Assembly: GCF_025766255.1 (NCBI RefSeq)
Contig: NW_026516730.1
Coordinates: 1-64,000, forward strand
Length of the DNA: 64,000 nucleotides
From: Zychaea mexicana
Taxonomy: Eukaryota > Mucoromycota > Mucoromycetes > Mucorales > Lichtheimiaceae
Reading direction: 5' to 3'
Shown: positions 3,703 to 59,537 of the stretch, piece after piece
Layout of the letters: the number at the start of each line of letters is the position of its first letter
Position numbering within the stretch: the first letter of the stretch is position 1
The notes under the pieces: generated by a model
Databases searched by the model: none
Told to the model about the DNA's origin: nothing
The model's input: only the letters and a program-made list of their open reading frames with translations
Translations under genes and position numbers: made by a program

Positions 3703-4118
3703 TGTTGTATTCAACATGATCAATAACACATATTCTTTAATTGGTCATTAACGATTGCTGTTATTTCCCTCATAACCTCACTTGTGCAGACATTTCTTTA
3801 TTCATACACATCTTGGTGAAACACCGATCAGCTATGCTCAGGAAGAAGTTGTCATTATTCGGATCATGTAATTCACATTAGTTACTATCTGAGGCATTTA
3901 CCCGGATGTACCTTTTACTCACGCATCATACATTACTTAATCCTATATAATTGATTTGTAACATCAATTCATCCGTTCAATGCACACGCTGTGGTAGTTG
4001 CCAAGGATAAGCCATTTCTTATAAATAGTGAGAACTTTTGTTATCATAATAAACCAGTTTCAATTCCTTTCAGGTCTCGTTGACTTATTCTGTCTCTTTT
4101 GGTTTATTGGATATTACA
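3703..4118 (+). repeat. 5' LTR of chromovirus 1
   Basis: 416 bp, starting TGTTGTATTC and ending GATATTACA. It matches 14692-15107 over its full length with about six substitutions. It interrupts the fifth unit of the tRNA-like array. A TATAAATAG-like box lies near 4020. Confidence 0.95.
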
Positions 4119-10875: not shown

Positions 10876-11310
10876 ATTGCTAATGTTACAAGTTGGAATT
10901 TGAAATTTAATTCGAGATGGAGATGGAAATGTAAGTTTGGAAACGTAAAAAGCAAGAATAGCTTCAACACGCGATTTTCCGATTCAAAAGCGACACAGTA
11001 TAGTTACAAATAGACGCATACGTTTTTTAAGACAGTTTGTAAATAATACTTGTCATGTATTCAAGGACGATATAGCTGCACTTAGTAGCAAACGCATTTC
11101 TTATAAGAGCAGCACATTTTGCTCACTGACTTCCATTTCTTCATCTCCTCTTCCCATCGTATTAAGCTTTCCTCTCAACAAAAACTGGTTTATTAGGATA
11201 TTCCATCTTCGATGCAACTACTGTCTAAAATCACGAAGTACACAGATCGGATGATAGGTGCAAAATAATGGTATATATACATACTTGCTGCATTAACGTT
11301 GTTGGACATC

Positions 11311-12480: not shown

Positions 12481-12489
12481 CCTTGACAA
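12481..12489 (+). repeat. Right 9-bp target site duplication of the MULE
   Basis: CCTTGACAA directly after the right terminal repeat. Confidence 0.95.
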
Positions 12490-17985: not shown

Positions 17986-20772
17986 TTAGGCTCGAGTAAC
18001 ACGAGAGCGGGTCGAACGCCGAGGTGATGGTGGTGGAGCAGGCTTGGTCGGATGCTGCATATGAAAGTCACGAACTACGTCAGCGGCGTTCCAAAGATTT
18101 GAAGCTGGTTCCCAGGTGTTTTCTGAGGGATCTATGTATCCCTTCCACGCAACTAGATATTGCAATTGACCCCGACGACGGCGACTGTCAAGTATACTGT
18201 CGACTTCGAAATGCTCTTCGCCCTGAACTTCTACAGGAGGCAATGGCGCAGGTACACGGTCTTGAATGTCCGGAGTCGCCGGGTTATCGCGAGGCGTTAA
18301 CAGGGCAACGTGGAACACTGGGTGAACCCGTAGTGCAACAGGCAAGTTCAACTTGTAGGCATGGGAGCCAACACTCGCAATGATTTTGAATGGGCCCAAG
18401 CGAGTATGGTCAAGCTTCGAAGATGGCCTAACAGTCTTGATATTTTTGCTAGAGACATAAACGAAGTCGCCTATATTGAAGACTGGTGTGGGTCGATGGT
18501 GCGCGTTGTAGAACACGGCTTGCTGTTGCTGGGCGAGGCGAATTTCACTTTTCAACGATTCATGAAGTTCTTTCAACTCCTTACAAAAATCTTCGGTAGC
18601 ACCAGAGAGACCTGAACCCTGGGGCGTTGGCAACAAAGAAAAACGTGGGTGGTAACCGTAGGTGGCCTCAAAAGGAGTATGGCGCGTGCTTGACTGGACA
18701 GAATTGTTGTAGCTGAATTCGGCAACAGGTAACAAGGAAGACCAGTCGTCCTGCTGGTAATTGATATACGCGCGAAGATACTGCTCCAATATTGAATTTA
18801 CTACCTCAGTTTGTCCGTCGGTTTCGGGCCTGAAAGCTGTTGACATATTTGACTTGATCTGGAGCAACTCGAGTAATGAACGCCAGAAACGCGACGTGAA
18901 CAGTGCGCCACGATCCGAGACAATATCATTGGGTAGACCATGCAAACGGAAAACTTCCGTGACAAAAAGGTGGGCTAATTCGCTGGCCGTAATGGTGTCC
19001 TTGCATGGGACGAAGTGCGCCATTTTTGTCAATCGATCAACAACAACCCAAATTGCATTGTGACCTGACGAGGATGGCAAACCAACAATGAAGTCCATGC
19101 TGATGGAAGACCAGGGACGAGGAGGTACTTGTAAGGGCTTGAGCTCACCGAGAGGGGCTTGACGGGAGTGCTTCGAGCGTTTGCAGGTGCGACAATTGGA
19201 GACGTAACGTTTGACGAATTGACGTAGTCCCGGCCAGAAGAAACGCCGAGCCAACAGTTCGCAAGTCTTAGCGATACCGAAGTGGCCTGAGACTGGGTGA
19301 TCGTGGTGTAGCCGCAACAATTCTAACTTCAACGCATCAACATCAGGTACATAGATGCGGTCATCGAGGAACAACAATCCTGAATCATCGTCGAAGCGAT
19401 ACCGGCTCATCTTGACGTGAAGCTGCCTGGGTATGCTGGAAGGGTGTTGTACGAGATTCAAGATTCTTGCGGTCTTAGCATCGTCATCGTATTTATCGCG
19501 TATTGCTGATATCAGGTCGTCATCAACAGGGCAACTAGAGACAGCCCCAAGAACGACTTGATCCTCACGAAATATGGATTTTATTGGCTGTTTATCGCTA
19601 TCGTCCCCCTTCCGGAAGGCCATGTCCGAGCGACGGGAGAGGGCATCGGCCTTGGGGTTCTTGGTGCCTGGACGGTACGTGATCGTGAAGTTTTCAACTT
19701 CGGACAGCTTAATAGCCCAGCGGGCATGACGACGACTAAGGGTGCGGGCACTGGATGACATGAAATACTCGAGGTTCTTGTGGTCAGTTAGGACAGTAAC
19801 TTGGTGCTGGGAGCCTTGGAGATAATGGCGCCATACACGGAAACTGTCAACAATGGCAAGCATCTCTTTGTCATAGATGTCATAATTGACCTCGGCAGGA
19901 TTCAACTTGCGACTATGGAAGGCTACAGGATGATGCACACCAGTAGAGTCGGGCTGGCTAAGCACCGCAGCAATGGCAAAGTCGGATGCATCAGTTTCAA
20001 CAAAGATCGGTTGAGAAGGCACGAAATGCTGCAGAACTGGCGCAGTAGTGAAGCTCTGCTTGAGTGCTGAGAACGCGGTATCTTGTGTAGTAGTCCAATC
20101 GAACGGAACATCCTTCTTCAGCAGCGAGGTAAGGGGGGCAGTGATGCGAGAGTAATGGTGGATGAAACGGCGATAGAAATTGGCGAACCCAAGGAAAACC
20201 TGAATGTCATGAGTGTTTTTGGGGGTAGGCCAATCCAAGATGCAGGTTACCTTGGTTGGATCCATGCTGACACCCGAGCGACCCACGCGGAAACCAAGGA
20301 AATCAACCTCATCGACGTCGAAATTACACTTGTCAGCTTTGGCATAAAGGGCTGACTCACGAAGTTTTTGCAAGACTAGCTTGACATGTTCATCGTGCTC
20401 TGCTTGATTGTCGCTGAAGATCAAGATGTCATCCAAGTACACGATAACGAACTGGTCAAGATACTCGTGCAGGGCATTATTAATAAGTGCTTGGAAGGAA
20501 CCCGGCGCATTGGTCAAACCGAAGCTCATAACATTATACTGAAAATGACCGTATCTTGTGCGGAAGGCGGTTTTCCATTCATCACCCTTGGCTATACGGA
20601 TACGATGATAAGCATTGCGGATATCAAGCTTGGTAAAGACGGTGGCAGATGAAAGACGGTCGAGCATTTCGTTGATCAGAGGCAATGGGTAACGATTCTT
20701 GATGGTGATCTTGTTAAGCCCACGGTAATCAACGCAAAGGCGTAGGGAACCGTCCTTTTTCTTGACAAACAA
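17986..20772 (-). pseudogene. Chromovirus 2 pol: reverse transcriptase, RNase H, integrase, chromodomain
   Basis: A 928-residue open frame that begins inside the RT. Upstream sequence coding [18 protein letters not shown] belongs to it, so the ATG at 20772 is not a true start. [31 protein letters not shown] and the catalytic [10 protein letters not shown]. RNase [18 protein letters not shown] and [10 protein letters not shown]. Integrase: zinc domain [16 protein letters not shown] with CRTCKRSKH, then Asp in [11 protein letters not shown], Asp in [10 protein letters not shown] and Glu in TDGQTEVVN. The chromodomain ([19 protein letters not shown]) is C-terminal. The frame itself is undamaged over its whole length, but it is out of frame with the protease. 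The element is therefore defective or needs a frameshift. Confidence 0.93.
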
Positions 20773-20831
20773 GATGGGGGCTCCAGCAAGACTAGTCGAA
20801 CGACTGATGAAACCGTTATCCAGGTTGGTCT

Positions 20832-21710
20832 TTATATATTCACGTAGGACGCCGAGTTCTTCTTGTGATAAGGAATAGATCGGCCCAAATGGAACTTGAG
20901 TATCTCAGCAATCGGGATAGCATGATCGATGCCTGGACGAGAAGGGGGAAGGGCATCAGCTTGGTCCTTATTGAACACATCAGCAAAAGCGCGATATTTG
21001 GATGGCAGCGAGGAATTAGCAGTGGATCCTTCAATCGTGACGGAAGCGATGGATGACAGGGACCCTAAGGGGTCGACATGAACTGAAAACGCTTGGGCGC
21101 CCTTTTGGATAAGTGACTTGATAGTAAGTGCACTAACCAGTCGGATATCCGGTGGATGCTTAGCAGTAGGTGGTGAAGGATGTGAATTGCTGCTGCAAGG
21201 TGCTGGCAAGCAATCTGTGGTGCAGGTGGTGGAAGTCAGGTCGATGTGGCCGGTGCGCCAATTGATAGATGGATTATGCTTGATCAACCAGGGCATACCA
21301 AGAATGATGCTGTATTGTCCCAAGGACGTTGGATACAGCAAAATTCGTTCATGGTGTTGGCCAACGAACAGATCGACTGGACATTCGTCAGTGATAATAC
21401 CGGAACGAAGAGCTCGACCGTCGACTGTGCGGACCAAGAGTGGGTTATTACTTTTGATGGACGGCAAGTTATGATGGCGTGCGAAGGATTCATCGACAAA
21501 ATTCTCCATGGCACCCGAATCGATCATGGCATGTGTTTTTACTATACGACCCGAAATATCGATGGATACCGACATTTTGAGAGGATGGTGCAAGGAAGGT
21601 GAGGATTTCGGAGAAGATGAAGCAGGCAGAGGTGGAATAACAGAAGAGCAGAGAGGTTTGGTTTCAACAGTTGTTTTATTTGAAGTTACTTCTGATGATA
21701 GGGAGCCCAT
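20832..21710 (-). pseudogene. Chromovirus 2 protease region
   Basis: Frame coding a retropepsin-type domain, with the active-site motif AMIDSGAMENFVDESF then ILGMPWLIKHNPSINW. It cleaves the polyprotein. It ends in a frame offset from pol: near 20890-20900 the sequence must shift by one to reach [14 protein letters not shown]. It is also offset from the zinc knuckle upstream, where a stop follows GKGTSHGL near 21720. Whether the second offset is programmed, a lesion, or the GTAAGAG there acts as a splice donor cannot be told from sequence. Confidence 0.8.
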
Positions 21711-21719
21711 GGTATACTC

Positions 21720-22756
21720 TCTTACAGGCCATGGGAGGTGCCTTTTCCCGACTTCTTAGGGCGAGTGCGGGCCTCATGACCTTCACCACCGCAGTATAAG
21801 CAGAGACCAAGCTGACGTCGACGAGCCTTTTCCTCTGCCGACAATGGGATGAACTTGGTTTTAGCTGCATCCAGGTCCATGGGCTGCACAGCGCTTGTGG
21901 TGTTGGTGGGGGAAACTGTGACCGGTGCCGAAAATCTTTAACGAGGGCGGAACGGCTGATTGCGTCGTTGCCCTTCTCTTTCGCGCATTCTGTTGTCGAG
22001 TTCGATTACCTTCGTTACATACAACCACAGCTCAACTGGCATGTCGCGAGTGGCGAGCTCATCCTTAAGGCGATCGCAGAGGCTTTTGCGAAAGATGGCA
22101 AGGAGGGCAGCATCATTGAACTGAGTGCGTAAGGCGAAGCGGTGGAAGGTGGCGGCGTGCTCAGAAGCTGCAGTCGAACCCTGACGTAGGTCTAGCAAGC
22201 TGTTTTCGATTTCCAGTAGTTCGTTGACCTGTCCAAAAGCCAAACGAAATTCATCAAGGAAGAGCGAAAACGAAAGCATGCACGGATCAACCTCGTCCGT
22301 ACCGATGTCATCGAGATAAGGCTGAGCCCAATCGAACGCAGGTCCAGCCATGAAAGAACACATGAAACAAATTTTTGAAAGGTCGTCAGCAAACCTGTCC
22401 TGATTCATGTGTATGGCCATCTTGACGTGGGTGATGAACGAGCGGATGTCCTCAGTGTTGCCCTTAAAAACTGGTGGGTCATTTACACGGAAGGCTCGGC
22501 AGTACGCGGGTGCTTGTGAATCCAGGGAGAGGTTTTGGAGACCCTCTGCGATGCTGGCAGCATTGATCGAGGATTCCGGAGTTTGGGCACGGACGTATTT
22601 AGGGCATATGGATTGACAAGGGAAAAAATAGGAGATAGGAAGTACAAGAGAGTCAGTGGGGAAACGGAGTATCTTAAAAAGAAAATATCGAAAAATGAGA
22701 GGGAATGTAGGGTGACAATAAATAGATAGAAATGGTAAAAGTGGTATAGAGATCAA
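21720..22756 (-). pseudogene. Chromovirus 2 gag with zinc knuckle
   Basis: Gag capsid region: FRVNDPPVFKGNTEDIRSF, FAFDWAQPYL-like core, then QGSTAASEHAATFHRFAL. An in-frame TAA at 21938-21940 interrupts it, after which the frame continues to a zinc knuckle, CLYCGGEGHEARTR. The knuckle's fourth ligand is Arg instead of Cys. The true N-terminus is unclear: the first 50 residues from 22756 are hydrophobic and may be leader sequence rather than protein. Confidence 0.75.
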
Positions 22757-25343: not shown

Positions 25344-27318
25344 TCAGAAATTTGATGTATGTTTTGTAGAAGTTTTGTAGAAGTTTTGTAACTCGGTTGG
25401 AATGCGTAATTCTTGCTGGTGTTCGATCTTGCAAACATAGCCCGCCGGCGCATCCATCACCGAAGTCACGACACGTAGATCTATATGAAATCGATCAACA
25501 CAATCTCTTTCGTCTGTTGCAGCACAAAAGAATAACTTACGTGTGTGTGAATAGCCCACAACACAAATTAAACGGATTTTTCGTTCGTCGTTGTTTACTT
25601 CGGCATCAATACGAAACAACATATCCTTTATCTTTTTGGGCAACTTCAGGAGTTTCTGTACAAGCTCCTTCGCTCCGACGCCTGCTTCATCCGAATACCC
25701 ATGTTCGGCCGAGGCAAATTTTAACATGTTTTTCGCGCGATGATAAGGTCAGGCTTGGCGTTGTGAACCTTCTGTTTTATAAGTCCATTAGCTGCACGTC
25801 TTTCTTCGTTGTGCTGTGCTGATATGCAGCAGATTGTGGGTCGCTTCTGAATGACAAAAATACTGTAAGTTTGAATTCTTATATCAATGCTCTTTATACT
25901 GTTACTTCGATCAGTACCGTTGGACAGCCACTGCCAAATCATCAAAGGAATCGTTGATAGCTCGCCACAGCCGCAGCATATCGCGTTCTTTACCTTTGAA
26001 TCCCAGGTTTGCAATAGCGCCACAAGGACTGACCGCATCGCGATGGGCATGAACAGCGATATGGCGGATATCGTTGATGTCGGCCTATTGTACGGGTTCT
26101 TCAAAGTTAATAATCTAACACTGAATTTTCATTAAAGCTTATATGACCAGACGACATACCATATTGATTAAAGTAGTTTTTCTTAAAGTAGTTGACGTTA
26201 AGAGTGATCATTTTCTGAACCAACGAACGGATTGCAACTCGGATACTCATCCTCTCTCTCTGCATTAATACTAAGTAAGCATAAGCCCGGTTTTGATCTA
26301 TACGAAACGAGTTGATACTGTAAAGCACTTTACTTTGTCTCGAACACGAAGAAGAAGGAAGGCTATCTATGCTCATTTCCATTCGTTTACCTGCAGCCTC
26401 GCTGAAAGCTGATGTGAACGGCTTAACAGATATGTGTACTGTAATTATAACTAATTCACTGTGAATTGATGTTTTTTTCTCCGTGAAACATCGTAACTAT
26501 CACATAAGAAACCTTCAGACAGATAATCTTTTTCCCCGTTTTCTTTTGCCGGCTCAATATTTTTGGTGGTCGATGTTGATGATATTGTCGGATTCGCAGC
26601 AAGAGCTAAAGGGAGTGATATCCGCGAGTACATTTATTGGTCTCAACAAATGTGCATCTCAAAGCAAGAATTCGGTATCCTGAAATACTAGCGTTAAACA
26701 AACCAAATATCTTTCAAACTCCTGAATATTAGATGTCACTTTGAATTTTTTATTTTTTTGCTTATTGGGAATGAGGTGTCTTGTAAGAAGAAGTGATGGT
26801 GGCTGATGGTGAACTTGGGGCGGCTGTTGCAGGTACCTGCTCGTTGCGCTGTATGATAATACAATTAGTACTGAGCTTGTCAAAATCCAGTAGGAGACCG
26901 TACCTTGACCAGCTCTTCCAGGATTTCTATCCAATTTGGCTGCTGCTTGGTCCATTTCTTCAATGGCATTATCAGTAAACGGCCTTAAACCGCAGACATT
27001 TATACATTTTCAACTTACTGGAACTTGGAATTCTTTTATAGCTTTGGTGAACAAATAGTTCCATGTTCCTTTGACATCTCTTAAGTTGCTGTGGCTGTAC
27101 ACGAACTCGGGATCGAACTGATAAAAATTCCTTAAAGTAACTGCACCCTGTTCGACGGCAAGGTACTTTTTGAAAGCTACGAATTGCAGTAATATGAGAC
27201 GCATGTTGTCAAATTTCTACATGTTATTGATTTTAAAGAACATGTAAAGTACCTTCTTTAAAAGCTTCTACGTCTGAAGCGTGCGAGTGCGTTTTAGGAG
27301 TGTTGCGAGAAGACATCT
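25344..27318 (-). pseudogene. Multi-exon Mucorales-type multi-copy gene with nuclease-like C-terminus (copy X)
   Basis: Minus-strand gene of unknown function. Exon 1 begins at an ATG near 27315 (MSSRNTPKTHSHASDVEAFK, then EG at a GT donor). Exon 2 codes NFYQFDPEFVYSHSNLRDV and GTWNYLFTKAIKEFQVP. Exon 3 codes EMDQAAAKLDRNPGRAGQG. Weaker exons follow at 26451-26633 and 26107-26382 (SIDSLPSSSCSRQSKVLYS). The last part has KPDLIIARK (25721-26104), then in another frame FASAEHGYSDEAGVGAKELV and ELRIPTELQNFY (25344-25727). A Pro-Asp followed by a Glu-Gly pair and a Lys-rich helix recalls a PD-(D/E)xK nuclease-like core in large multi-copy Mucorales proteins. That is inference from memory of the fold. 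The frame shift between KPDLIIARK and FASAEHG also occurs in the other copies, so the gene was already broken or is spliced unusually. Confidence 0.5.
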
Positions 27319-31049: not shown

Positions 31050-32625
31050 TGCAATTGTCGCCTTTACGATATGCTATTATATAATTGTATATATAAACTG
31101 GTCCCTCCGCTTCGCTTCCGGACGATGTGAGCCCCACCGCTCCGCTGCGTGTCAGCATCTGTCCTCCAGGGACTAGTTTATTATTGTATATATAACGGTG
31201 TGAGAAATGCAAAAACTTTCAGATATTAGTTTCATCGTTTTACTTACCTTCATTTGATAGACTTGTTTCAGGAATTTGATGTATGTTTTGTAGAAGTTAT
31301 GTAGAAGTTTTGTAACTCGGTTGGAATGCGTAATTCTTGCTGGTGTTCGATCTTGCAAACATAGCCCGCCGGCGCATCCATCACCGAAGTCACGACACGT
31401 AGATCTATATGAAATCGATCAACACAATCTCTTTCGTCTGTTGCAGCACAAAAGAATAACTTACGTGTGTGTGAATAGCCCACAACACAAATTGAACGGA
31501 TTTTCGTTCGTCGTTGTTTACTTCGGCATCAATACGAAACAACATATCCTTTATCTTTTTAGGGCAACTTCAGGAGTTTCTATACAAGCTCCTTCGCTCC
31601 GACGCCTGCTTCATCCGAATACCCATGTTCGGCCGAGGCAAATTTTAACATGTTTTTCGCGCGATGATAAGGTCAGGCTTGGCGTTGTGAACCTTCTGTT
31701 TTATAAGTCCATTAGCTGCACGTCTTTCTTCGTTGTGCTGTGCTGATATGCAGCAGATTGTGGGTCGCTTCTGAATGACAAAAATACTGTAAGTTTGAAT
31801 TCTTATATCAATGCTCTTTATACTGTTACTTCGATCAGTACCGTTGGACAGCCACTGCCAAATCATCAAAGGAATCGTTGATAGCTCGCCACAGCCGCAG
31901 CATATCGCGTTCTTTACCTTTGAATCCCAGGTTTGCAATAGCGCCACAAGGACTGACCGCATCGCGATGGGCATGAACAGCGATATGGCGGATATCGTTG
32001 ATGTCGGCCTATTGTACGGGTTCTTCAAAGTTAATAATCTAACACTGAATTTTCATTAAAGCTTATATGACCAGACGACATACCATATTGATTAAAGTAG
32101 TTTTTCTTAAAGTAGTTGACGTTAAGAGTGATCATTTTCTGAACCAACGAACGGATTGCAACTCGGATACTCATCCTCTCTCTCTGCATTAATACTAAGT
32201 AAGCATAAGCCCGGTTTTGATCTATACGAAACGAGTTGATACTGTAAAGCACTTTACTTTGTCTCGAACACGAAGAAGAAGGAAGGCTATCTATGCTCAT
32301 TTCCATTCGTTTACCTGCAGCCTCGCTGAAAGCTGATGTGAACGGCTTAACAGATATGTGTACTGTAATTATAACTAATTCACTGTGAATTGATGTTTTT
32401 TTCTCCGTGAAGCATCGTAACTATCACATAAGAAACCTTCAGACAGATAATCTTTTTCCCCGTTTTCTTTTGCCGGCTCAATATTTGTGGTGGTCGATGT
32501 TGATGATATTGTCGGATTCGCAGCAAGAGCTAAAGGGAGTGATATCGGCGAGTACATTTATTGGTCTCAACAAATGTGCTCTCAAAGCAAGAATTCGGTA
32601 TCCTGAAATACTAGTGTTAAACAAA
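31050..32625 (-). repeat. Third partial copy (Z) of the duplicated unit, with truncated multi-copy gene
   Basis: Matches 42363-43840 of copy Y in direct orientation, including the 3' half of the multi-exon gene. The minus-strand frames are at 31268-31483, 31645-32028, 32031-32306 and 32375-32557. It carries extra one-base indels (near 31503 and 31560) that shorten the terminal frame. The match ends at about 32625, where copy X and Y continue with further exons. It is joined on the left to the LINE fragment. Confidence 0.8.
31095..31179. mobile_element. 85-bp miniature inverted-repeat insertion
   Basis: Present in copy Z, absent at the same site in copies X and Y. Ends are AAACTGGTCCCT and AGGGACTAGTTT (inverted repeats with one mismatch). 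The sequence attgtatatata is duplicated on both sides, while the empty sites hold it once. It is far more GC-rich than its surroundings. Confidence 0.7.
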
Positions 32626-42475: not shown

Positions 42476-44815
42476 TCAGAAATTTGATGTATGTTTCGTA
42501 GAAGTTTTGTAGAAGTTTTGTAACTCGGTTGGAATGCGTAATTCTTGCTGGTGTTCGATCTTGCAAACATAGCCCGCCGGCGCATCCATCACCGAAGTCA
42601 CGACACGTAGATCTATATGAAATCGATCAACACAATCTCTTTCGTCTGTTGCAGCACAAAAGAATAACTTACGTGTGTGTGAATAGCCCACAACACAAAT
42701 TAAACGGATTTTTCGTTCGTCGTTGTTTACTTCGGCATCAATACGAAACAACATATCCTTTATCTTTTTGGGCAACTTCAGGAGTTTCTGTACAAGCTCC
42801 TTCGCTCCGACGCCTGCTTCATCCGAATACCCATGTTCGGCCGAGGCAAATCTTAGCATGTTTTTCGCGCGATGATAAGGTCAGGCTTGACGCTGTGAAC
42901 CTTCTGTTTTATAAGTCCATCAGCTGCACGTCTTTCGTTGTGCTGTGCTGATATGCAGCAGATTGTGGGTCGCTTCTGAATGACAAAAATACTGTAAGTT
43001 TGAATTCTTATATCAATGCTCTTTATACTGTTACTTCGATCAGTACCGTTGGACAGCCACTGCCAAATCATCAAAGGAATCGTTGATAGCTCGCCACAGC
43101 CGCAGCATATCGCGTTCTTTACCTTTGAATCCCAGGTTTGCAATAGCGCCACAAGGACTGACCGCATCGCGATGGGCATGAACAGCGATATGGCGGATAT
43201 CGTTGATGTCGGCCTATTGTACGGGTTCTTCAAAGTTAATAATCTAACACTGAATTTTCATTAAAGCTTATATGACCAGACGACATACCATATTGATTAA
43301 AGTAGTTTTTCTTAAAGTAGTTGACGTTAAGAGTGATCATTTTCTGAACCAACGAACGGATTGCAACTCGGATACTCATCCTCTCTCTCTGCATTAATAC
43401 TAAGTAAGCATAAGCCCGGTTTTGATCTATACGAAACGAGTTGATACTGTAAAGCACTTTACTTTGTCTCGAACACGAAGAAGAGGGAAGGCTATCCATG
43501 CTCATTTCCATTCGTTTACCTGCAGCCTCGCTGAAAGCTGATGTGAACGGCTTAACAGATATGTGTACTGTAATTATAACTAATTCACTGTGAATTGATG
43601 TTTTTTTCTCCGTGAAGCATTGTAACTATCACATAAGAAACCTTCAGACAGATAATCTTTTTCCCCGTTTTCTTTTGCCGGCTCAATATTTTTGGTGGTC
43701 GATGTTGATGATATTGTCGGATTCGCAGCAAGAGCTAAAGGGAGTGATATCCGCGAGTACATTTATTGGTCTCAACAAATGTGCATCTCAAAGCAAGAAT
43801 TCGGTATCCTGAAATACTAGCGTTAAACAAACCAAATATCTTTCAAACTCCTGAATATTAGATGTCACTTTGAATATTTTATTTTTTTGCTTATTGGGAA
43901 TGAGGTGTCTTGCTAGGAGAAGTGATGGTGGCTGATGGTGAACTTGGGGCGGCTGTTGCAGGTACCTGCTCGTTGCGCTGTATGATAATACAATTAGTAC
44001 TGAGCTTGTCAAAATTCAGTAGGAGACCGTACCTTGATCAGCTCTTCCAGGATTTCTATCCAATTTGGCTGCTGCTTGGTCCATTTCTTCAATGGCATTA
44101 TCAGTAAACGGCCTTAAACCGCAGACATTTATACATTTTCAACTTACTGGAACTTGGAATTCTTTTATAGCTTTGGTGAACAAATAGTTCCATGTTCCTT
44201 TGACATCTTTTAAGTTGCTGTGGCTGTACACGAACTCGGGATCGAACTGATAAAACTTCTTTAAAGTAACGGCACCCTGTTCGACGGCAAGGTACTTTTT
44301 GAAAGCTACGAATTGCAGTAATATGAGACATATGTTATCAACTTTCTACATGTTACTAACTTTAAAAAAAAACATGGAAAGTACCTTCTTTAGAGCTTTC
44401 TACGTCTGAAGCGTGTACCTTGAACAGCTCTTGCATAAAAGTTTCCCAACCTGGCTGCTGCTTGTTCCAGATCTACAAAAGCATGATCAATAGACAGCCT
44501 TAAACCGCAGACATTTATTCATTTTTAACTTACTGGGATTTCGAAGTCTTTTACAGCTTCGGTGAACAAATAGTTCCATGTTCCTTTGATGTCTTCTAGG
44601 TCTATGATTTACATGAACTCAGAATCGAACTGGTGGATTTCTTTATAGAAACAGTGTCCTGTTAAGCAGTAAGGTACAATTCGAAAGCTACGAATTGCAG
44701 TAAGTGAAACGCATGTTAACAACTTTCTACTTGTTACTAACTTTGAAAAATCAAGGAAAGTACCTTCTTTGAAGCTTTCTACGTCTGAAGCGCGTGAGGG
44801 CATGTTAAAGTGTTG
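42476..44815 (-). pseudogene. Multi-exon nuclease-like multi-copy gene (copy Y)
   Basis: Partner of 25344-27318 with the same exon order and the same frame break between KPDLIIARK (42853-43233) and FASAEHGYSDEAGVGAKELV (42476-42859). Exon 1 here starts at an ATG at 44803 (MPSRASDVESFKE). Between exon 1 and exon 2 an extra diverged copy of the exon 2-3 region is present (about 44400-44790 repeats 44030-44390), an internal tandem duplication of about 370 bp absent from copy X. Function unknown; see copy X for the fold argument. Confidence 0.5.
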
Positions 44816-45285
44816 GGGTTAAGACATGCTGGAATTAGGGACGGGGAATGTTATGTCGAGGATCGGAAATAAGACGAGCAGTGCGTGCGAGTCTTGACAG
44901 TCAAGTTTTTATTACGAGAGAAAGAGAGAGTTCCCCAAACTTTCGGCTGAAATTACCCTCTGCTGTGAGGACAACAACAGTCAGTGATAGAAGCTTGCGG
45001 TTGAGACTGTTTTTGTCGAACTGCAAAAACCGCAGGAATAGTACGTATGAGGCTGGGCGAGCCAATGAAATTAGACCTTAATATTTGAGTTCGCCAATAA
45101 AGCTGAGCTTTTTGAGTGCAGACAATGACATATCGAAAATACTCGTTCAGTAAATGAATGACAATGAAGCACATACAGGCACTAAATTATGAAACGTACT
45201 TATTCGTCTTTATCCCACTCCCAGTACTATAATAACAGAAGACTTTTATTCATCCAAATTCATAGATTTTTGTGACAGGACTAAT

Positions 45286-46100
45286 CTAACTCTTTTCACT
45301 TGTTGGTCTTGCTTGTTGGGTGTTCCTCTTTTTGTTGGTAGCTGTTTCAAAAACAAGAGAAGCGGCTTTAGCTTTTTTCAACAAAATGGGCACGTCTTTC
45401 TTTGGACGTACGGGTCGATGGGCTGGAGCTGGTGGTATTTTGAAATCAACTGGCAAGCCATTTGTTTGTAGTTCGACTGCTTGTCTGGCCGCTGATGTTG
45501 ATGTCACTTGGCTTCGCGTTTCCAGGACAGAACGTTTTAGATTATCATACTCTTAGTTTATCGAAACCCCCGGTAAATAACAGTACCTCTTTCCATGCGA
45601 TTGCTGATCAATGCAGTCGATGTGGTTCTCGAGTTGTCGTGTTTCCTGGGTTCCCCACGATTCGGATAATTCAGTGTCAGGCAGTGCCGCAGTAGTTATG
45701 GATGAAGATTTGTTTGAACTGCTTGTATACCCTTCCTTGACCATGTTTTTGTAGCGTTCGCGGCACTGTACTCCAGTCCTGCCTGGTATTGAAAGAGAAA
45801 ATGCCCCCCCACGCAGAACTCTGGACGAGATTTCTCTCCTCCCATTCGTGAAGCCTTTCTTGAAAATGTTTTTTCTCTGCAACATTTAATTGTCCAATGT
45901 TAATCATCGTGCCTGGATCCACTTGGTGAAGATAATACTGTTCCGCATTCTAAAAGAGATGTATGAGTGAGCACAAGTTTTTGTGATTTCCTTTTTCTTA
46001 CTCGTACCATATGCCGTTGCTCCCAGGCGCGAGCCTTTTGCGACTTCCATGCAGTCACTTCTTGATCAGCGAAAGGATCTTTGGTAGTTGACTTGGTCAT
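45286..46100 (-). pseudogene. Myb/SANT-like DNA-binding protein, frameshifted
   Basis: Probable DNA-binding protein. Exon 1 starts at the ATG at 46100 (MTKSTTKDPFADQEVTAW) and ends at 46002. A 52-bp intron (45950-46001) joins it in phase to NAEQYYLHQVDPGTMINIGQ, then EKKHFQERLHEWEE and a Myb-like helix pair: Trp in SSAWGG, then IPGRTGVQCRERYKNMVKEG. The IPGR.G.QC..RY signature is the recognition helix of a Myb/SANT-like family widespread in Mucorales. The two halves are in different frames, joined only by a shift at a run of seven G (plus-strand C7 at 45804-45810), so one base is missing or extra. A further exon (45286-45545) codes ETRSQVTSTSAARQAVELQT and a Pro/Lys-rich tail. The gene is divergent from the Fanzor gene, 576 bp between the two ATGs. 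Confidence 0.65.
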
Positions 46101-46602
46101 CTGGGAAAAAAATACAGAGGGTTACTGTCTACTACTTGGGAAGTCCTCATTTGCTTCTATTGTAACTTACCATGCATTCTACTTGAGCAAAACGAAGCTG
46201 GCGTGCGGTGGGCGATTGGGAAAGAGTAAAGAGCAACACTCGGCATGACTTGATATAAACTCGGATTGAAGTGGACCTATTTATCACTGAAAGAACAACA
46301 ACTTGTTCTTATTCTATTTGCCATCACGGATGATAACAGGCATTCGTCGAAGCTCATTCCAGTGCGGATACATTTCTCTATTGTTTGATGGTTTTCTGTC
46401 TTAATAGCCGAACCCTCGTGGATGACAATGAGGACACTTTGTGTACCAAATCATTCATGCGCGCTGCACTTCCTGCTCTGCATGGTAAGCCGCTAACATG
46501 AATATTCAAAGCATGCCTCTGAGCTAAATCAACACGTCATATGATATACATATACAATGGTCCCATGAGAATGACAATTTGCATGAAACCATCACCTCAC
46601 CG

Positions 46603-46610
46603 TATAAAAG
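46603..46610 (+). promoter_or_regulatory. TATA box of the Fanzor gene
   Basis: TATAAAAG, 67 bp upstream of the ATG at 46677, followed by a CT-rich leader (tttctttttctttctttc), a common fungal core-promoter layout. Confidence 0.5.
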
Positions 46611-46676
46611 CATCAGTTTCTTTTTCTTTCTTTCTTTTTCGGCTCATTCCAAATCTCTCCCATTCTTAAAAGAAGC

Positions 46677-49600
46677 ATGTCATCAGTTGTTGAAGAGCCT
46701 CCACAGATCCCTGAAGAACCCCTCCTCCCGCTGTCCAAGAGCCTGTTCCCGCTCTCCCAGAGCCGTTTGTAGAGTTCAACGGCTTTGGCGAGAGAACGCG
46801 GGTCGTAACTCGACCTTGCTCGGTCAGAGCATTTCTTCATGGCGAATACCACTTTTTCCGAGTACGTTCACTTTTACCTTCCTTAGCTTATTATTATCCT
46901 TCCTGAATGTTGAGGCTTATTATTGTACATCTTTTTTGTAGACGATCCTCAGACAAACATCAGAAATGGTTTCTTTACGAAAACAAGATGTTTACAATCT
47001 TGTTTCTTTGCACCTCAGGCGTCACTTTGAGGGTTATTATCATATTGCACCTCCGTTGTTTTTGCAAGGCTTTTGGGTCATTGCGTCCAAAGTGCTTTCG
47101 TACGGATTACACGACGAATTACCAGGATTCTTTTTTAACGTGAGTTTTTCCTGTATGTTCAATACATATTTACATATTTATTCCAAATATTCGTGCTAAC
47201 ATCCGATAATTCAATAGCTATTATGGAAAGAAGACCTAATGCGCACGGCAGCAATCTTTGTCGCAGAAAGAACTAACCCGCACAATAATGAACGTAAGTG
47301 ATTGCAACATTTCAATTTAAAAACTAACAGAGCAGTATATCAGTGACTTCAGTAAATGGTTTAAACGTTGTTTTATTTGATGCATGTGTACTGTATATGA
47401 TATATAAGAATACTTCGAGCCAGAGGATATTGTTCCTGGGTCATTGAGAGATTCGTTAGCAAACATTTTGCTGTCATGGCGCTGCAAAGTATGACTCAAG
47501 TACAGAATATAAAAGCACTATGAAACTAAGGAAAATAGATATGATAGCTCATCGTTCTTATTTTATGCCAGATATGAGAGAGCATGTCCTAAATATCAAG
47601 GATTACATGAATCGAGTTTGGAAGGGTGCTTTACAACAACTCCTACACAACCGAAATCAATTGGAAAGAGCAGGTAGAAAGAATCCTACATATGCATATT
47701 ATTGTGCTTACTAATCAATATGGTACATTACGAATCTTGTTGTCCTAATATTATGTCGGAACAGCACGAGTATTAACAAGTAACATTTTGAACCATGAAG
47801 CCGAATATCCCAACAATGTAGTTCATAATCAATCATTGGGAAGATTGTATCGGTAAGCTTATATTATACAGGATAACAGTTTGCGATATATATGCTGATT
47901 CTTTGTTGTGAACTGGTTGATAGCTTCATTCATGGTCGCTTTCAAGAGCTGCTCCATGACACAGACATAACTCGTTTGCGGTCTCGCAACATGGGAGAAA
48001 ATTTATGCATCTCCCTTCTGCATTTGTCGTACAACCTGCTTCAATATTCCGAACGAACTTATCCACGAGCACGCCCTTGGCCACTATTGCCATTAGGTTC
48101 CCATCAAACAGGTTTCTTTCGGTTGGATACCCGTACTTTGTATTTGTTGGTGAGAAGAGCACGAATTGCGAATCGAAATAATCCGGCACCGCTCATATTG
48201 CTCGCAGAGGTATTGGTCAGCTTTTGTATTTTTGCTTCTCACATACAATAGTGTTTGTAATCTTACTCTTACATTTCTGTATGTGTATAGGGCGGGTCAC
48301 CGTTGTCGATTTCAAGATGCAGACAACTCGAAAGCAATCCGCTCTGGTGCCAGGAGCTATGGGAAACGGTTTTCGATACTGATCACATAAAACCAAACCG
48401 CCGCCGATACGGTCAAGATTGTGAGTGCTTTTAGTGATGGCTAGCGGAAAATATTATACATTCTATGTATATCCGCATCCTGATCCTTTTTATACGATTT
48501 TTTTATAGATCAAAACCCCTTTGCATACAACGCGCTAAGCTTCAAGCATACAGCGACTACGGATGGATGTATGGTACACGTCCAGTTCGAAAAGTTTATC
48601 GGGAATAGTCCAGGCAAGCATAAATCCTGCTTTAATAATTTGGAGTTTGTAAGCTAAAGCTGAATGTCACGCTGACGACAAAACAATACTATGTACACGC
48701 CATGAAGAATTATTTCCTAGTACACACGATGAAATTAGACGCCTTCCCGAAGGTCAAGACTTAACAATTTGGAGCCATGGTGTATACAGACTCGAGTTGA
48801 ATCCGGATGGCCTAACTCAGCAGCGTGCAGAAGAAAGTCGAATTGTTGGAGTCGATCCTGGTATGGCGTACTACGGAGAGTACAATAGTTTGCGGGCTTG
48901 TTGCATCATTTCTTTCCCACTGATTTTTACGTTTGTAATTGATGATATAGGTGTGTCGTCGATGATCACAGGAGTATCGACTGCTGAAGTTGTCTTGAAA
49001 AAGAGTATATAATAGATAAGCCTCACACTACATTGAGCTCTTGACTAAAAAAAATCAATGCAAAGTGCGGAGACGGGTGTCTTTTGGGAATATAAATTAG
49101 AAAACAAAAATCGGCAGAAAGCCGAAATCCAAGAGGATTATGACTCCATCGCAGAGAACTCGCCCTATGTCTCACGTTCAGAAGATTTTCTTTTCTATAT
49201 CGCTAATCTGAATCGAATTCGGCTTCGGTAAGTAGCAGGAAGGAGAAGAAGGGCTAATCAATGCTAGGCGAGTTGGTGACAAGGCATATAATAACGGCAA
49301 GAATAACAAGTTTGATATGTATAGAATGCGTCGTTTCTCGTCTGGGTTCAAACACAGAGAAATTAGGAGCTTGTTATTATCAAGCCGGCAGAGAAAACAA
49401 GATCTTGTCAAAGATGAGCTGCTAGGTGTCACTCCTCCTCACCCAGCTGTAAGCGATTCCCTTTTTCCATTTTTCTCGCGTGATATCTGATGATACTCTT
49501 TTTTCTTTTTTTTTTGCTGATGACCTATTTTTGAAAAACTGAAACATAGGGAGAGCCTATCAAATGGATACACAAATCGTCGCACCGATCTCGCAAAAGA

Positions 49601-50600
49601 GCTGCCCGCTTGAGGCGAGAACGCGAGCGTTGGCACCCAAATCAACAACCAACGATTGTGTTCTATGGTTCCAGCAGAATGCCGCATTTCCCGGGATGGG
49701 CCCCGATCCCCCATTTGGTTAGTATATTTACAAGAGAGAATGCGCAAAGAGGTTGCTACACACACTTATGAGTGACGTATATTTTAGCGAATAATTAAAA
49801 AATTGGCTTCACACATGCTGCTGATACTGACGGACGAGTACAACACTTCTCAAGCTCACGCAGGGTGTCAGCAACGGCTAACAAGTATTCCGTATGACGG
49901 GGAGGTTTGCGGACACAGGTGCGTAATAATATAAAATCTGATTGCTATACATAATTCCCACTTTAAGAAGAAGCCCATTTACAACGACTGACGGGATCAT
50001 TTTTACCTATGTATCCATGCAGAAAAACAAGAGAACGTGCAACGTACTGGGTTCAAGGACCTCAAGGCCGCTTCATTCCAAAGAGAGGAAGGTAAATAAA
50101 GTACCGTCGAGACCAGGATGGCCATTTGCTGAATCCGGCAAGTGACTGTATACAGGCACGCCCACCACCGCCAGGTAAAGGCAAATTTCTACTAATAAGG
50201 TATATAATCAGTAGTTGTGTTCTGCTGTACTAAATTGGCATGAAATACCATAATAGATTGGGTGATGTGGAAGATTAAAGCTTGTAATAACCATCCAGAG
50301 CTTTATCCAGAGGCTGTGGTATGTTTTCACCCTTTAAACCCACGAAGGATTCTGCCTAGTTATATACTAAAAGAGTTTTGTTTTCTCTTCTAGATTGTAG
50401 ACCGGGATAAAAATGCGGCATTGAACATAAGAAGCATAGGCATAGCCTATATGAATAATGATAGACATCCAGACTTTCGACCAGAGGCATTCCTACCACC
50501 AGGTGGACAGCTCCCTCAACAAGCGCAATTTCAAGAAGATCAAGAAGAACAGGAGGAACCAGAAAACAATATTTTAGCATTAGAAAATGATAGGAATTAG
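46677..50600 (+). pseudogene. Fanzor (eukaryotic TnpB-like RuvC nuclease), about 17 exons, with frame lesions
   Basis: Fanzors are RNA-guided DNA nucleases related to transposon TnpB and Cas12. Exons that fit in phase: 46677-46861, 46942-47139, 47218-47293, 47409-47673, 47765-47852, 47924-48209, 48291-48420, 48509-48613, 48654-48879, 48951-49227, 49268-49448, 49550-49717, 49788-49918, 50023-50091, 50143-50174, 50257-50318, 50394-50600. Markers: RTRVVTRPCSVRAFLHGEYH; PWPLLPLGSHQTGFFRLDT; FKHTATTDGCMVHVQFEK; RuvC-I RIVGVDPGM; FDMYRMRRFSSGFKHREIR; PTIVFYGSSRMPHFPG; LTDEYNTSQ with a Cys/His zinc-ribbon region after it; RuvC-III IVDRDKNAALNI. The Glu of DEYNTS may be the rearranged RuvC-II residue reported for Fanzors (recalled, not checked). 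Lesions: one base short near 46720, one extra near 47489, TGA at 48985-48987, and shifts between 49000 and 49075. Probably a recent pseudogene. Confidence 0.78.
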
Positions 50601-50942
50601 TCGAAAATTCCACTACGATTGTATCTTGGGGCCAAGAGGACAGTGCTTTTACTCAGCGCGGAAGCCACGGACTCTGGAGTAAGTATTAAATCTATTTTCT
50701 ATGACTGTTTTGAAACATTTGAAATCATCACTAATACACTGTCTACATGTGTGGAAAAATTATTTTGACCAACCTCATTCATGTTACCCAAGCCCAAAAA
50801 CCGCAAACCGCATAAGTTCGGCTAATGATTAAATTGTCTCAGACCATCGCAGCATTATTTCATACCCTTCATTTCGATGCTTCCCGAAACTAAAACGGGA
50901 AGGAGAGCCCGCTTCCTTTGAGCAGATCATTCCAACAAAAAG
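50601..50942. other. Fanzor 3' flank with a small hairpin
   Basis: No coding sequence. At 50880-50902 a 7-bp stem (cttcccg with cgggaag, 9-nt loop) sits in a GC-richer patch. It could be part of a guide RNA scaffold or of the transposon end, but nothing else supports either. Confidence 0.3.
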
Positions 50943-53900
50943 TTATAGCAGTAGCTTTTGTTTAAACAGTCGAACGATAACTATGCTTTTTTTAGGCGTC
51001 AAAAATGAGCGGTGGAGAGAAGGGTACGAAGCATACAACATTGAAATTAGGGGAGCATTAGCTAAACTACGGGACATGGTTTTTTGAACGGAGTGCGTAA
51101 TACTGTAGAAGTAGTAGTAAAGGCTGGTTGTCAAAAGGTTAGGGCCCAATGACCACGCCATAATCCATGTATAATTGCTTCGATGATGATGGTACTGGGA
51201 GGTTGGGTGGGTCTTGTGGAAATTGCATGTGAAATAATCTGCGTGTTGCCAACAGGAAGAAACAATAAATCCTCCAAAAGCAATGCCAAACAAGTCTTTT
51301 CTTAGGACGATCAAATAAGAAATGCCAAAAATCATCAATACCATAAACACATATGGGACATTTGTCCGAGTCGAATATGTCTGGTAACAGTCGATGTACG
51401 GTCGTGCGGCAAGAAAGTGTCCGGTGAAGCGCACGGAACCAATAAGATTGTGTACCGGTATGGCCATCATGGTGGACCAAAAGCGCTGCCATTCTCCCTT
51501 GGTAAGATAGTCAGTTAGGCCATCAATATAGAAATTGTGTTGAATAGCGGTATTTTGGAAAAGCTCATTAGTAGCCTTGCAAAGACCAAAGTCACCAAGT
51601 TTGAACCAATGAAGGAGTGGCCGGACGTCGTGTGGCGCTGATGCTTGATCAGAGTCACCAAGTGCTGCTAAGCCAGGACCGAAGCATGCTCGATAGAAGA
51701 ATGCGTGGTGCAGGAGTGCATAGGAGTCAAGTAAAGAAAAGAGGCGAGAGATGATGCGCGGGTAGCTCCCAAGCTCATCCCTAGGTTTGCAGCGAAGGTG
51801 CCCCAAGTGCAGATCTAGAACAAAGGCATCAGCGACGAGAATACGATGTCGTGATATAGCTGATGACGCTTTATGAATTGTCAGGGTATGTGGACTGGGT
51901 GGTGGTGCGATCGTGTCCACGATATGCAGCTTGAGGATTGTGGCAGTGGCAAGAGACATACATTTAATGTTACAAGGAAAGCTGTCAATTGTTTTGCACA
52001 GAGAGCCTATTATGCTGACAGGTGCTGTGAACTGGGCAGTACGTAGGCGCGCGAAAAGAAGACACAGCAACGGATCTTGTCTTTCACTCTAGCAAATTCA
52101 GGACTTGATAAATCCAAGCATGTATATAAGAACGATGGCGGTGCTGTGGATCAAACAGTGGCTGGATCCATCAGAGCTGTAGAGCTGCTGCTGCACCGGT
52201 GGATGGAGAAGTGACAGACCACCGAATTGGCGCGGTTGTTGAAGTGCTTGATAGGAGACTTTAGGCCACATTCTAGTCGTAAGAAAAGAATGGCTAAAAG
52301 CTTGTAGGCTAGACATGAACTTGACTGGGCAGGACATACGCGTAAACATGCTACAACGCTGTCAGGATCAAGACATCGAGAAGGTTTGCCCATCCGCGAA
52401 CAGAAAGATTGCGCTGTAAGTACTTTGACATGCAGACCGAACTTTGCCGAGCAATGATCCGAGAAACTGGTCGCGTTGATCGACGTTGGAATACAGTGGG
52501 TAGCTTAGATACAGTATATAAGCGCCCCAGAGGCTGTGCGATCGTACCATGAGGTGATGTTATGTTGTGCGAGTTCTTGTTGCCAGGAGGAGGAGTGGGC
52601 CTTAGATAGAGATATTGCATGCGTTTTTTCAAAGCTTATGCGACCATTTGACGTGCGAGACTATGTGTCCAAATGTTCCACAACTTGCTTGAGATCATTG
52701 TGTGATTAAAGAACGCGAAACAATCATAGGCGTATGCAAGAATTTTAAATGTGATTTTCAGCCGTTGCCGATGGCACTGTCGTTTCAAGCCTAAAGCCTT
52801 GGATGGTTTCGTCATGCAGTATACGTTGTAGCAGTGGCTTTAGAGCGACGTTGGAAAGGATTGAATACAGAAAATCACCTTGCCGTACACCTCGCTGTTG
52901 TTCGATAGCCAGTGGTAGTGCGCCAATCATGTTAATCTTGACAGAAGTACCGCAGTATTATTATAAATACTTTGTATAATCGACCATGGGAAACACGAAC
53001 GTTCAAGGCATCGCTGCAGGTAGGCCATATTAAGCATGTCATAAGCTTTGGCATTATCAAGTGCCAAGCCTATGTCGTCAGAGTGGAGCTTTGCTGCGTA
53101 ACCCATAGAGAGCGTTACAGCAAGGCTATTGTCTGCAATATACCGTCCGTGTAGAAACCCAATTTGATGTCGATTGATGAACTTATGGCCAACAGAGACA
53201 ACACGAGCATCCAAATTTGATGAAGACTTTAAAGTCAGTGTTGATAAGAGCAATTGGACACCAGTTGGCTAAGGAGGACAGATCGTCTATGTTCGGTAGG
53301 AAACATAGATATGTCTCGGACCATTATCTGGGAAAGACCCCATGCTGGAGAGCAACATTGTACTGTATCATATACGCGCAAAATAAGAGTCAAACACTGG
53401 TCATGGTAAAAGTGCAAAGACAGGATCGCGTAAGGCAGCCAACCAAAACCGGACTACTTCGCTTTGGTGACGTCCAACTGCAAGTTGCAGTTCGTCTAAC
53501 GCAAATTTTGTCGGTAAAATTTTTTTATCCTCGGTTGAAAGGACGCACGATGGTGGAATATGGTCGAGAAGATCACTGATAGCAGATTTATCAGCTGGTG
53601 ATGGGGTTTCATATAGAGCTGGCAATAAAATGACCAAGCTGCGTCTTGCATATGTTCTAAGGAGGTACCTAGAACAATGGTGTCCGGATACTGAAGCTTG
53701 GCTATGTTGCGTTGTGCTTGACGCTGATGGATAGTTTTCTTGAGATAACTAGCAGAGGGTTCGCTCTGCTCACACCAGCGGATACCAGCCTTGAGAGATT
53801 GGAAATATGCCGATTCTTCTTGAACCACTCCTAATTGGTAACAGACAGAAGCTAAGCGGTCGGGTGTGTAGCTAATGAGCTTTTGCGTCCTTAGCATCTT

Positions 53901-54294
53901 GTGGTGCAAACGTTGCAAATGGTTCTCTTAACACTTTCGTCGCATTACTTTATAGCGCCCATATTTACGACAAGTTTGATGTAGTAATTGAAGTCTACTA
54001 CGATTATAGTTTGTTCAAGAGTAGAAGCACGTCGTTGATCGAAACAAGCAGTGATAAATTGTTGCGGAAAAAGGTATGTTACTCGCATCGTGTTGCTGGT
54101 GCATAGATAAGATCAAAGTCTTTGTTGGCATGTACTGCTTTGACCTGAAGTTCTCTTCCATCCTGTAGAGAAAGAAAGGGTTCGAGCCGAATGTATGAGA
54201 TAAAGTGATCAGGAAGCAATAGCGACTCCATGGAGTTGAGAGTAAAGAATCGTGTCGGGCGTGATGTTCGGTAAACAGGTGTATTGTATGGCAA
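50943..54294 (-). pseudogene. Decayed LINE (non-LTR retrotransposon)
   Basis: Minus-strand non-LTR element whose reading frame is broken many times. From the 5' side: an endonuclease-like tail (54079-54294, FISYIRLEPFLSLQDGRELQ and LIYAPATRCE); the pre-RT linker RWCEQSEPSASYLKKTIHQR (53496-53918); RT with INRHQIGFLHGRYIADNSLA and GLALDNAKAYDMLN (52927-53253), then QQRGVRQGDFLYSILSNVAL (52745-52930). The catalytic YADD box is replaced by ILAYAYDC at 52703-52714. Next come a thumb-like GGLSLLHPP (52098-52349) and a C-terminal zinc-binding region LHRTLSCRTTVHRLLPDIF then DKCPICVYGIDDFWHFLFD (51139-51492). Element 5' and 3' ends and target duplication were not found. It cannot be active. Confidence 0.8.
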
Positions 54295-58039: not shown

Positions 58040-59390
58040 TTATAAGAAGAATTGCCAAGAGTCGGTCATGGATGTAGTTGGCATGCTCATGTTGGTCATT
58101 TGCTCAACTTGCAAGAACTGTTGCTGCTCTTGCTGTTGCTTCGTAAAGAAGAGTTGCTGTTGTTGCTGCTGTTGCTCTCGCAGTTGCTGTCGCTGCTCCT
58201 CCTCCTCCTGCTGCTGCTGCATCGAGAGCATAATCTGCTGTTCGATCGCCTTTTGCTGCTCCATGGTTCTTTGCTGACGCTTTTGAAGGAGAGCAATTTG
58301 CTGAGTATACGATTGCTGCGAGGGGACAACAGGAAGGAGAGTATTAGCTGCTGGAGGTGGTGGAGTGGCGGGCGAGCAAGGAGAGTAGGCAGTCGTCGAG
58401 GAAATTGAAGGGGATTGACCGAAGCCATCGTCCGAAGAAGAGCTGGGGTATGACATGGTGTTGTTGTTATTGTTGTTGGATGGAACGAAGGAGGTCATGT
58501 CATGCGTATTAGTTATAGTGACTGGATAGCAGGGCTGCTCGAAGAAGTTGCCAGCGGCAACGAGCGAATCTTGCTGCTCCATGGAGACGTATGGTTGCTG
58601 ATGCTGCTGATTCCATGACGACGATAAAGAAGAAGTAGGGCTTGACGACAAGGATGGTCCGCGGTATTCCATGTTGTCATACCATTCTGCATGCAACATC
58701 ACTATAAAGGCCGCGGTTTTAGTTATAAATATACCTTTTACTTAATTTGCAGAAGATGTTTATAATAAACTTACATTGTGGTTCCTGCTGCTGCTGCTGC
58801 TGATGCTCACTGCGAGGTTGGCGCTTCTTGTAAGGTCCACGCTTGATGCCCTTCCGTCGTTCTTTGCGAGGTGAGTCGACACAGGTGGCAGTGAGGCCGA
58901 GTTTGATACAGCGTTGACAGGCTCTTCCGTCGTCACACTTTTTGCATGCTTTTTGACAATTTACTACATTTGCGGAGATTTGTGTCAAGATCACGTAAGG
59001 AAATTTCGTTTGTGCAACACAAATTAACAAATTGTTGTTAAACTTACCACAGGCATTTTTCACTTGTTTTCTCTTGGGCTTCTTCTTTTGGGCATCCTTG
59101 CTGCTGTTGGTGTGGTTTGAAGGAGTGGCTGGAGCTGCTGGGATAACGGTTGTGGTGGTGGTGGTGGCTGCGGTGGGCATGGCGAGCTGATCTTCGAAGT
59201 AAGCGAGTGACTGTGATTGTTGAGAAGGAAGCTGATAGAAGTCGGAAAGATTGTGATGGGTGGTGTGCACAGACGTGGTGGTGGGTACAGAAAGCTGGTC
59301 TACAAACTGTTCTGATTGAGGATGGAACATTGGAGCACCGATCGGTAATGGCATGCTGTCGTATGAAGTAGTAGCAACGTTGAAGTCCAT
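58040..59390 (-). CDS. Zn2Cys6 (Gal4-type) transcription factor, Q-rich
   Basis: Nuclear DNA-binding regulator. Three exons join in phase: 59390-59048, 58963-58775, 58701-58040, with GT-AG introns of 84 bp (58964-59047) and 73 bp (58702-58774), giving 397 residues. The start is the ATG at 59390 (MDFNVATTSYDSMPLPIGAP). Residues 1-105 are Ser/Thr/Gln-rich. The Zn cluster spans the first splice: KNAC-VNCQKACKKC then DDGRACQRCIKLGLTATC, six Cys in the expected C-x2-C-x6-type spacing, followed by the basic linker RKERRKGIKRGPYKKRQPR. The C-terminal half is disordered with long Gln runs (LREQQQQQQQLFFTKQQQEQ), a likely activation or coiled-coil region. No fungal-specific TF middle homology domain is present. 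This cluster type (CxNCQKACKKCD) is common in Mucoromycota and basidiomycetes. The gene appears intact. The targets cannot be told from sequence. Confidence 0.9.
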
Positions 59391-59528
59391 GATGGGAGAT
59401 GTGCGTGTGTGTATCGATAAAAGCAGTGGTGGTGCTGGTAGTGGCGATAATATAGTGATAATAGAAGCGAGAAAAAATAAAGTAGAGAAAAAGCGATAAG
59501 TTTTGGTCTGACCGCTTGAGAAGCATTT

Positions 59529-59537
59529 CTTTTATAT
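59529..59537 (-). promoter_or_regulatory. TATA box of the Zn2Cys6 gene
   Basis: ATATAAAAG on the minus strand, about 140 bp upstream of the ATG at 59390. The intervening leader is purine/pyrimidine-skewed and contains GT repeats. Confidence 0.45.

Follow-up and report, generated by a model that had tools for sequence, protein, structure and literature searches.

A decayed, probably non-autonomous DNA transposon with a Fanzor1-like gene in the mucoralean fungus Zychaea mexicana

The window analysed here is a stretch of 64,000 nucleotides from the fungus Zychaea mexicana (Mucorales, Lichtheimiaceae; contig NW_026516730.1, positions 1 to 64,000), which is contig 270 in the genome sequence that was searched (50.34 Mb, 305 contigs). 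It contains a complete copy of a DNA transposon in which the relic of a gene with the motifs of a RuvC nuclease, called Fanzor1-like in what follows after Fanzor, the eukaryotic enzyme that cuts DNA under the guidance of RNA, lies divergently to a broken Myb-like gene. An earlier note on this DNA had placed a Fanzor gene in a fungal transposon graveyard. The borders, the 8-bp target-site duplication and the empty sites described below show that the gene lies within a transposon, and the mobile unit (45032-50794) is larger than the gene span (46677-50600) that had been proposed. The main features of the element are the following:

45032..50794, no strand: whole DNA transposon copy of ~5.76 kb; copies elsewhere start and stop here, and the empty site is present at 8 other loci
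45024..45031, no strand: left target-site duplication CAAAAACC, identical to 50795-50802
50795..50802, no strand: right target-site duplication CAAAAACC
45032..45058, plus strand: left terminal inverted repeat, matching the end pattern and, at 79% identity over 81 bp, the left end of the DUF6729 element on C102
50767..50794, minus strand: right terminal inverted repeat, imperfect, matching the end pattern
45286..46100, minus strand: Myb/SANT-like gene, broken, divergent to the Fanzor-like gene; PF00249 in the C112 copy
46677..50600, plus strand: Fanzor1-like gene relic, 18 exons

The borders at 45032 and 50794 are sharp and common to the copies elsewhere in the genome, and the termini read GGC... 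with imperfect inverted repeats. Seven copies have both ends, and their flanking 8-mers agree at 8/8 positions in five, at 7/8 in one and at 6/8 in one, a comparison that permits one missing terminal element base in the window and C267 copies. The duplication begins with CAA at all 8 left ends and all 12 right ends that were read (one base earlier at the right end of C267). A query made of the two joined flanks was crossed by eight other loci (C251, C62, C143, C207, C146, C78, C61 and C190), and the insertion is confirmed by these eight related empty sites. The element is without a recognised transposase of its own, and we claim its class just as far as the 8-bp duplication and the kinship with DUF6729 elements (see below) allow. 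The Helitron and IS607 classes of Fanzor element were set aside in view of the terminal inverted repeats and the 8-bp duplication. The Mutator-like (MULE/MuDR) class was also set aside (PF10551 in a piece of the C102 protein, E 0.14, 13 bits for a cut-off of 27.6), as was the hAT class after consideration.

The family comprises 14 loci, with 18 element pieces among 28 matching rows, the other 10 rows containing flank only. The identity of the pieces is 87-98% (79-80% in short or diverged end pieces), and the Fanzor-like gene occupies the same position in all five long copies. Four other copies (C81, C255, C258 and C305) have one common internal deletion junction, from 45381 to 49055, and are derivatives that multiplied although they lack the 5' part of the gene. 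Two copies of the element (L027 and L033) contain short insertions of ~190 bp, bounded by inverted repeats and flanked by TA- or TG-like sequence, that resemble miniature inverted-repeat transposable elements.

Read exon by exon, the Fanzor-like gene has 18 exons, one more than the seventeen counted before:

46677..46861, plus strand: exon 1, frameshifted
46942..47139, plus strand: exon 2
47218..47293, plus strand: exon 3
47331..47488, plus strand: exon 4, frameshifted
47539..47673, plus strand: exon 5
47765..47852, plus strand: exon 6
47924..48209, plus strand: exon 7
48291..48420, plus strand: exon 8
48509..48613, plus strand: exon 9, which carries the TDG motif and precedes a GC-AG intron
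48660..48860, plus strand: exon 10, RuvC-I GVDPG
48951..48990, plus strand: exon 11, without its end and donor; approximate right limit
49066..49227, plus strand: exon 12
49268..49448, plus strand: exon 13; a later acceptor is apparently used in other copies
49550..49717, plus strand: exon 14, FYGSS region
49788..49918, plus strand: exon 15, RuvC-II Glu (DEYNTS) and HxxC
50023..50174, plus strand: exon 16, in-frame stop
50257..50318, plus strand: exon 17, CxxH
50394..50600, plus strand: exon 18, RuvC-III VDRDKNAALNI

All the introns are GT-AG with the exception of the GC-AG intron after exon 9. Their phase, which had been described as correct for most, is consistent over exons 1-12 and 14-18 when the same junctions are applied to the C267 copy; this does not extend to exon 13, which is longer in the window copy through read-through, the acceptor apparently lying further downstream in C112, C267 and C13. 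An independent public gene model of the C267 copy (P0071, BDB00DRAFT_521048) shares five of the junctions (exons 7/8, 8/9, 10/11, 11/12 and 12/13) and differs from ours at the junction of exons 9 and 10.

The ratio of non-synonymous to synonymous differences per site (pN/pS) was between 0.45 and 0.59 in 10/10 pairs of copies, with pS near the divergence of the introns (Fisher tests of three pairs gave p 0.006, 0.005 and 0.035). These values support the reading frame and show that constraint acted on the protein during the spread of the family, with decay coming later. The window gene differs from its three best copies at 108-114 of ~3870 sites. Its damage is greater than the four or so small lesions reported in the earlier note: there are frameshifts in exon 1 and, at more than one point, in exon 4; exon 11 lacks its end together with the donor, and a stop interrupts exon 16. 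In the other long copies, where lesions were scored over the exons other than 13, C112 has one stop, C267 has a lost acceptor plus an insert in exon 13, and C13 and C273 have many lesions. An intact paralogue had been expected as a possibility elsewhere in the genome; under the present model 0/5 long copies are intact.

In the 882-residue reading of the C267 copy the motifs are found at 434 (TDG), 517 (DPG), 679 (FYGSS region), 715 (DEYNTS), 723 (HAGC), 803 (CNNH) and 816 (VDRDKN). The succession of GVDPG, DEYNTS with a Cys/His region and VDRDKNAALNI noticed previously is therefore in the Fanzor order, with HxxC and then CxxH in between. Among the copies that hold the respective segment, the catalytic residues are kept in 5/5 (D), 10/10 (E) and 11/11 (D), and the ligand pairs in 10/10 (HxxC) and 10/11 (CxxH). 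RuvC-I reads GVDPG in the window, C267, C13 and C239, and GADPG in C112. A DPG motif and a catalytic Glu repositioned so that it precedes the zinc ribbon by six residues have been given as features of Fanzors (PMC10711439). Here the DPG is present, and E716 has this spacing when H723 of HxxC is counted as the first ligand. The motif published for TnpB and Fanzor is D-X(125,275)-[TS]-[TS]-X-X, a zinc finger with four cysteines (C4) and X(5,50)-RD (PMC3627910). In C267, 201 residues lie between D517 and T719 (including a 3-residue placeholder), and 11 separate H806 from R818. The TDG motif in the wedge (WED) domain is characteristic of Fanzor1 (PMC10711439). Here a TDG is located 83 residues upstream of DPG and kept in 4/5 long copies, and TDG x(40-150) DPG appears in 17/20000 shuffles; as it was sought only once the sequence had been read, it serves as an outside test. 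The full motif chain was matched by 0/20000 shuffles, with a pattern that was composed after the sequence was seen and permits C or H as ligand, and a looser one by 5/5000.

The second gene is recognisable through its C112 copy, in which PF00249 was matched at E 4.9e-5 with 23.8 bits, slightly below the cut-off of 24.4; the window copy is frameshifted inside the domain. As to what moved the element, the pattern of its ends led to a related element on C102, which encodes DUF6729 (E 1.4e-7) together with a DNA_pol_A_exo1 3'-5' exonuclease (E 1.6e-8) and is flanked by CAATCTCT and CAACCTCT, a duplication with 7/8 agreement. The C102 stretch showed no Fanzor-like gene. A relative on C16 has the same type of end and an 8/8 duplication (GAAATCTT), and on C19, C241 and C291 there are like ends ~1.5 kb past a stretch related to the C102 coding region. 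From these ends we conclude that they and the 8-bp duplication belong to the DUF6729 group, and that CAA is not universal. The DUF6729 and 3'-5' exonuclease protein is the likely mobiliser of the Fanzor-like element. No paper naming DUF6729 was found in the open-access library searched. Transposons encoding this protein and having 8-bp duplications are present in the genome at L043 (C102) and L045/L046 (C16), and also on C19, C241 and C291.

The borders of the element and its target duplication are established, as are the copy family, the structure of the gene, the order of its motifs, and its former constraint and later decay. We consider it probable that the element is a dead, non-autonomous DNA transposon of the cut-and-paste type, the cargo of which was a Fanzor1-like RuvC protein and a divergent Myb-like protein. 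Its ends would be recognised in trans by the DUF6729 and 3'-5' exonuclease protein of the related elements. While alive, the Fanzor1-like protein may have cut DNA via its RuvC D-E-D site under the guidance of an RNA that would be made from the right end of the element. This cutting may have helped the element to persist or to spread, an effect that has been proposed for other TnpB/Fanzor elements. The Myb-like protein presumably bound DNA, perhaps at the element ends or at the promoter shared by the two genes. Most likely the protein works like a Fanzor, but the C4 finger and the curated cut-off stand in the way of formal membership. The Fanzor identity assigned in the earlier note can thus be kept in part: the DPG, the repositioned Glu, the TDG and the transposon setting speak for it, and the curated hidden Markov model (HMM) cut-offs and the C4 ribbon do not.

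A number of results weigh against this reading. Instead of a C4 zinc finger the protein has HxxC...CxxH, with the pairs 76 residues apart; a zinc finger is found in many, not all, Fanzors (PMC10711439). The strict pattern for pro-Fanzors and TnpB, DPGx(120-160)Ex6CxxCx(12-18)CxxCx(4-8)D (PMC10711439), was not matched, the departures being the 196 residues from DPG to E, His in the place of the first and last Cys, and the pair spacing of 76. The HMM search that had been proposed as a check gave PF07282 with 15.6 bits (E 0.019) for a cut-off of 26.3. This and a weak match to PHROG_506 'transposase' (E 0.0053), the best in Pfam and PHROG, are both of TnpB type and confined to the RDKNAALNI stretch. 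The NCBIfam and PADLOC profiles did not match the protein, nor did Pfam match three C-terminal pieces in a first rough reading (one with misread residues). An hhalign comparison with a profile of 69 TnpB/pro-Fanzor-type proteins scored 33.8, which 0/150 shuffles reached (best shuffle 24.0), but the probability was only 20%, and reversing the sequence gave 26.7, more than any of the shuffles. The full-length spliced protein had 0/7995 scored candidates at E <= 0.001. With the C-terminal half, 1/3170 candidates was found at E <= 10, the model of the family itself, and no relative outside the genome. Five stretches of viral contigs fitted a pattern, of which 0 were confirmed. The predicted structure of P0071, a model without RuvC-II and III, had a predicted local distance difference test score (pLDDT) of 33 and is uninformative. 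Neither conservation nor folding pointed to a guide RNA: the 3' non-coding stretch is not hyperconserved (mean difference 2.7% over 12 copies, one partial, compared to 1.6-4.0% in introns and 1.3-5.8% in exons), and it shows no folding signal (z-score +0.89, 166/200 shuffles folding as well; controls -0.02 and +1.20). The 0-3 differences in 192 positions of the 3' stretch among four long copies were not counted as a signal, and Rfam gave no match over the window. Finally, the C16 duplication begins with GAA, not CAA. We use the name Fanzor1-like because the profile homology is weak and no relative was found outside the genome.

We regard it as unlikely that the protein is instead a non-Fanzor member of the RNase H fold, such as the transposase of the element itself, with motifs that are alike by convergence. 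Sub-threshold profile matches limited to the RDKNAALNI stretch, the absence of another recognised transposase in the element and the hhalign probability of 20% would agree with it. However, DPG, the six-residue Glu spacing, TS, ribbon and RDxNAA follow each other in order (0/20000 shuffles), the TDG was found on an outside prediction (17/20000 shuffles), and a candidate transposase family for these ends already exists elsewhere. A random host or foreign gene caught by one element and devoid of any role is very unlikely: the gene sits at the same place in five long copies and was constrained during the spread of the family, although some derivative copies are without its 5' part. That the lesions are assembly errors in a living gene is scarcely credible, given several independent lesions in the window, different ones in 4/4 other long copies and a pN/pS of ~0.5, not near 0.1, which fits decay after insertion.

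There is also a more far-reaching version, to which we give a low probability, in which the family would be a Fanzor1 lineage of its own that evolves fast, has swapped Cys and His in its ribbon, and is accompanied by a Myb partner on non-autonomous kin of the DUF6729-exonuclease elements. The oriented CAA beside every copy examined would then be both the transposase target and the target-adjacent motif, or part of it, and cleavage of the emptied site would restore the element. The reading that we prefer, a dead non-autonomous transposon with Fanzor1-like and Myb-like cargo, links a Fanzor element that lacks a transposase to a candidate mobiliser through common ends and target duplication. With it, the mobility of such elements, and any contribution of the nuclease to it, becomes testable in one genome. 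This family escapes profile libraries and a search of 5.8 billion proteins, and surveys built on these would undercount eukaryotic RNA-guided nucleases. The picture of what a Fanzor is remains unchanged by the present find.

Other features of the window are as follows. At 191-1803 there is an open reading frame (ORF) for a tnp2-like transposase (PF02992, E 1.1e-6, 28.5 bits, cut-off 28.6). The minus strand at 8569-10983 has ORFs that contain a SWIM zinc finger (E 0.0014) and resemble a Mutator-type transposase. Long ORFs at 4025-7273, 12473-14389 and 17989-21755 resemble, by eye, polyproteins of Ty3/Gypsy-type retrotransposons. A unit of ~0.8 kb with near-identical ORFs is repeated three times (25347-26128, 31294-32052 and 42479-43257). 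Adjoining the element, at 50943-53927 on the minus strand, there are fragments like the reverse transcriptase of retrotransposons without long terminal repeats (by eye), and at 58043-59531 on the minus strand a probable host gene has a Cys-rich cluster like that of fungal Zn2Cys6 regulators (by eye).

A second Fanzor/TnpB family is present in the same genome (L039-L042; P0001; C57, C246, C79 and C295), and we take it to be possibly of Fanzor2 type. It is alike in its DPG, repositioned Glu, RD and apparently broken copies, and differs in having a C4 ribbon and PF07282 above the cut-off. It matched the TnpB-like L79 of PDB 9b0l at 1.8e-15 and 69 database proteins besides its own, being nearer to TnpB, a Dunaliella protein and cyanobacterial proteins, and the protein of the window family did not match it in the genome search. 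The DUF6729 and exonuclease element (C102, C16 and kin) is alike in its GGC... terminal repeats, its 8-bp duplications and the left-end identity given above, and differs in encoding its own presumed transposase.

Among characterised Fanzors, SpuFz1, GtFz1 and PpFz1 (PMC10432273, PMC11423790) likewise have a DPG-type RuvC-I and a target nucleic acid-binding (TNB) region and are encoded by transposons, and PpFz1 is also mucoralean; the structure of a Parasitella Fanzor has been solved (PMC11423790). The protein of the Zychaea family matched no Fanzor among PDB chains by sequence up to E 10. A close parallel was described in 2013, when Fanzor1 was reported from Rhizopus, Phycomyces and Mucor, in transposase-less terminal inverted repeat elements flanked by 9-bp duplications (PMC3627910). 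The MuDR-like ROr-4, PBl-3 and MCi-4 of that work are alike in carrying a Fanzor1 gene in a transposase-less terminal inverted repeat element of a mucoralean host, with the C-terminal order D...TS...ribbon...RD. Their duplications are of 9 bp and those of the Zychaea element of 8 bp, the comparison being one of published descriptions. The Zychaea element is also set apart by its DUF6729/exonuclease-type ends and its HxxC...CxxH ribbon, and it has a Myb-like second gene, none being mentioned for the three elements in the text searched (PMC3627910). What the window contains is, then, a diverged and dying Fanzor1-like cargo gene, the kind to which it belongs having been described from Mucorales in 2013.

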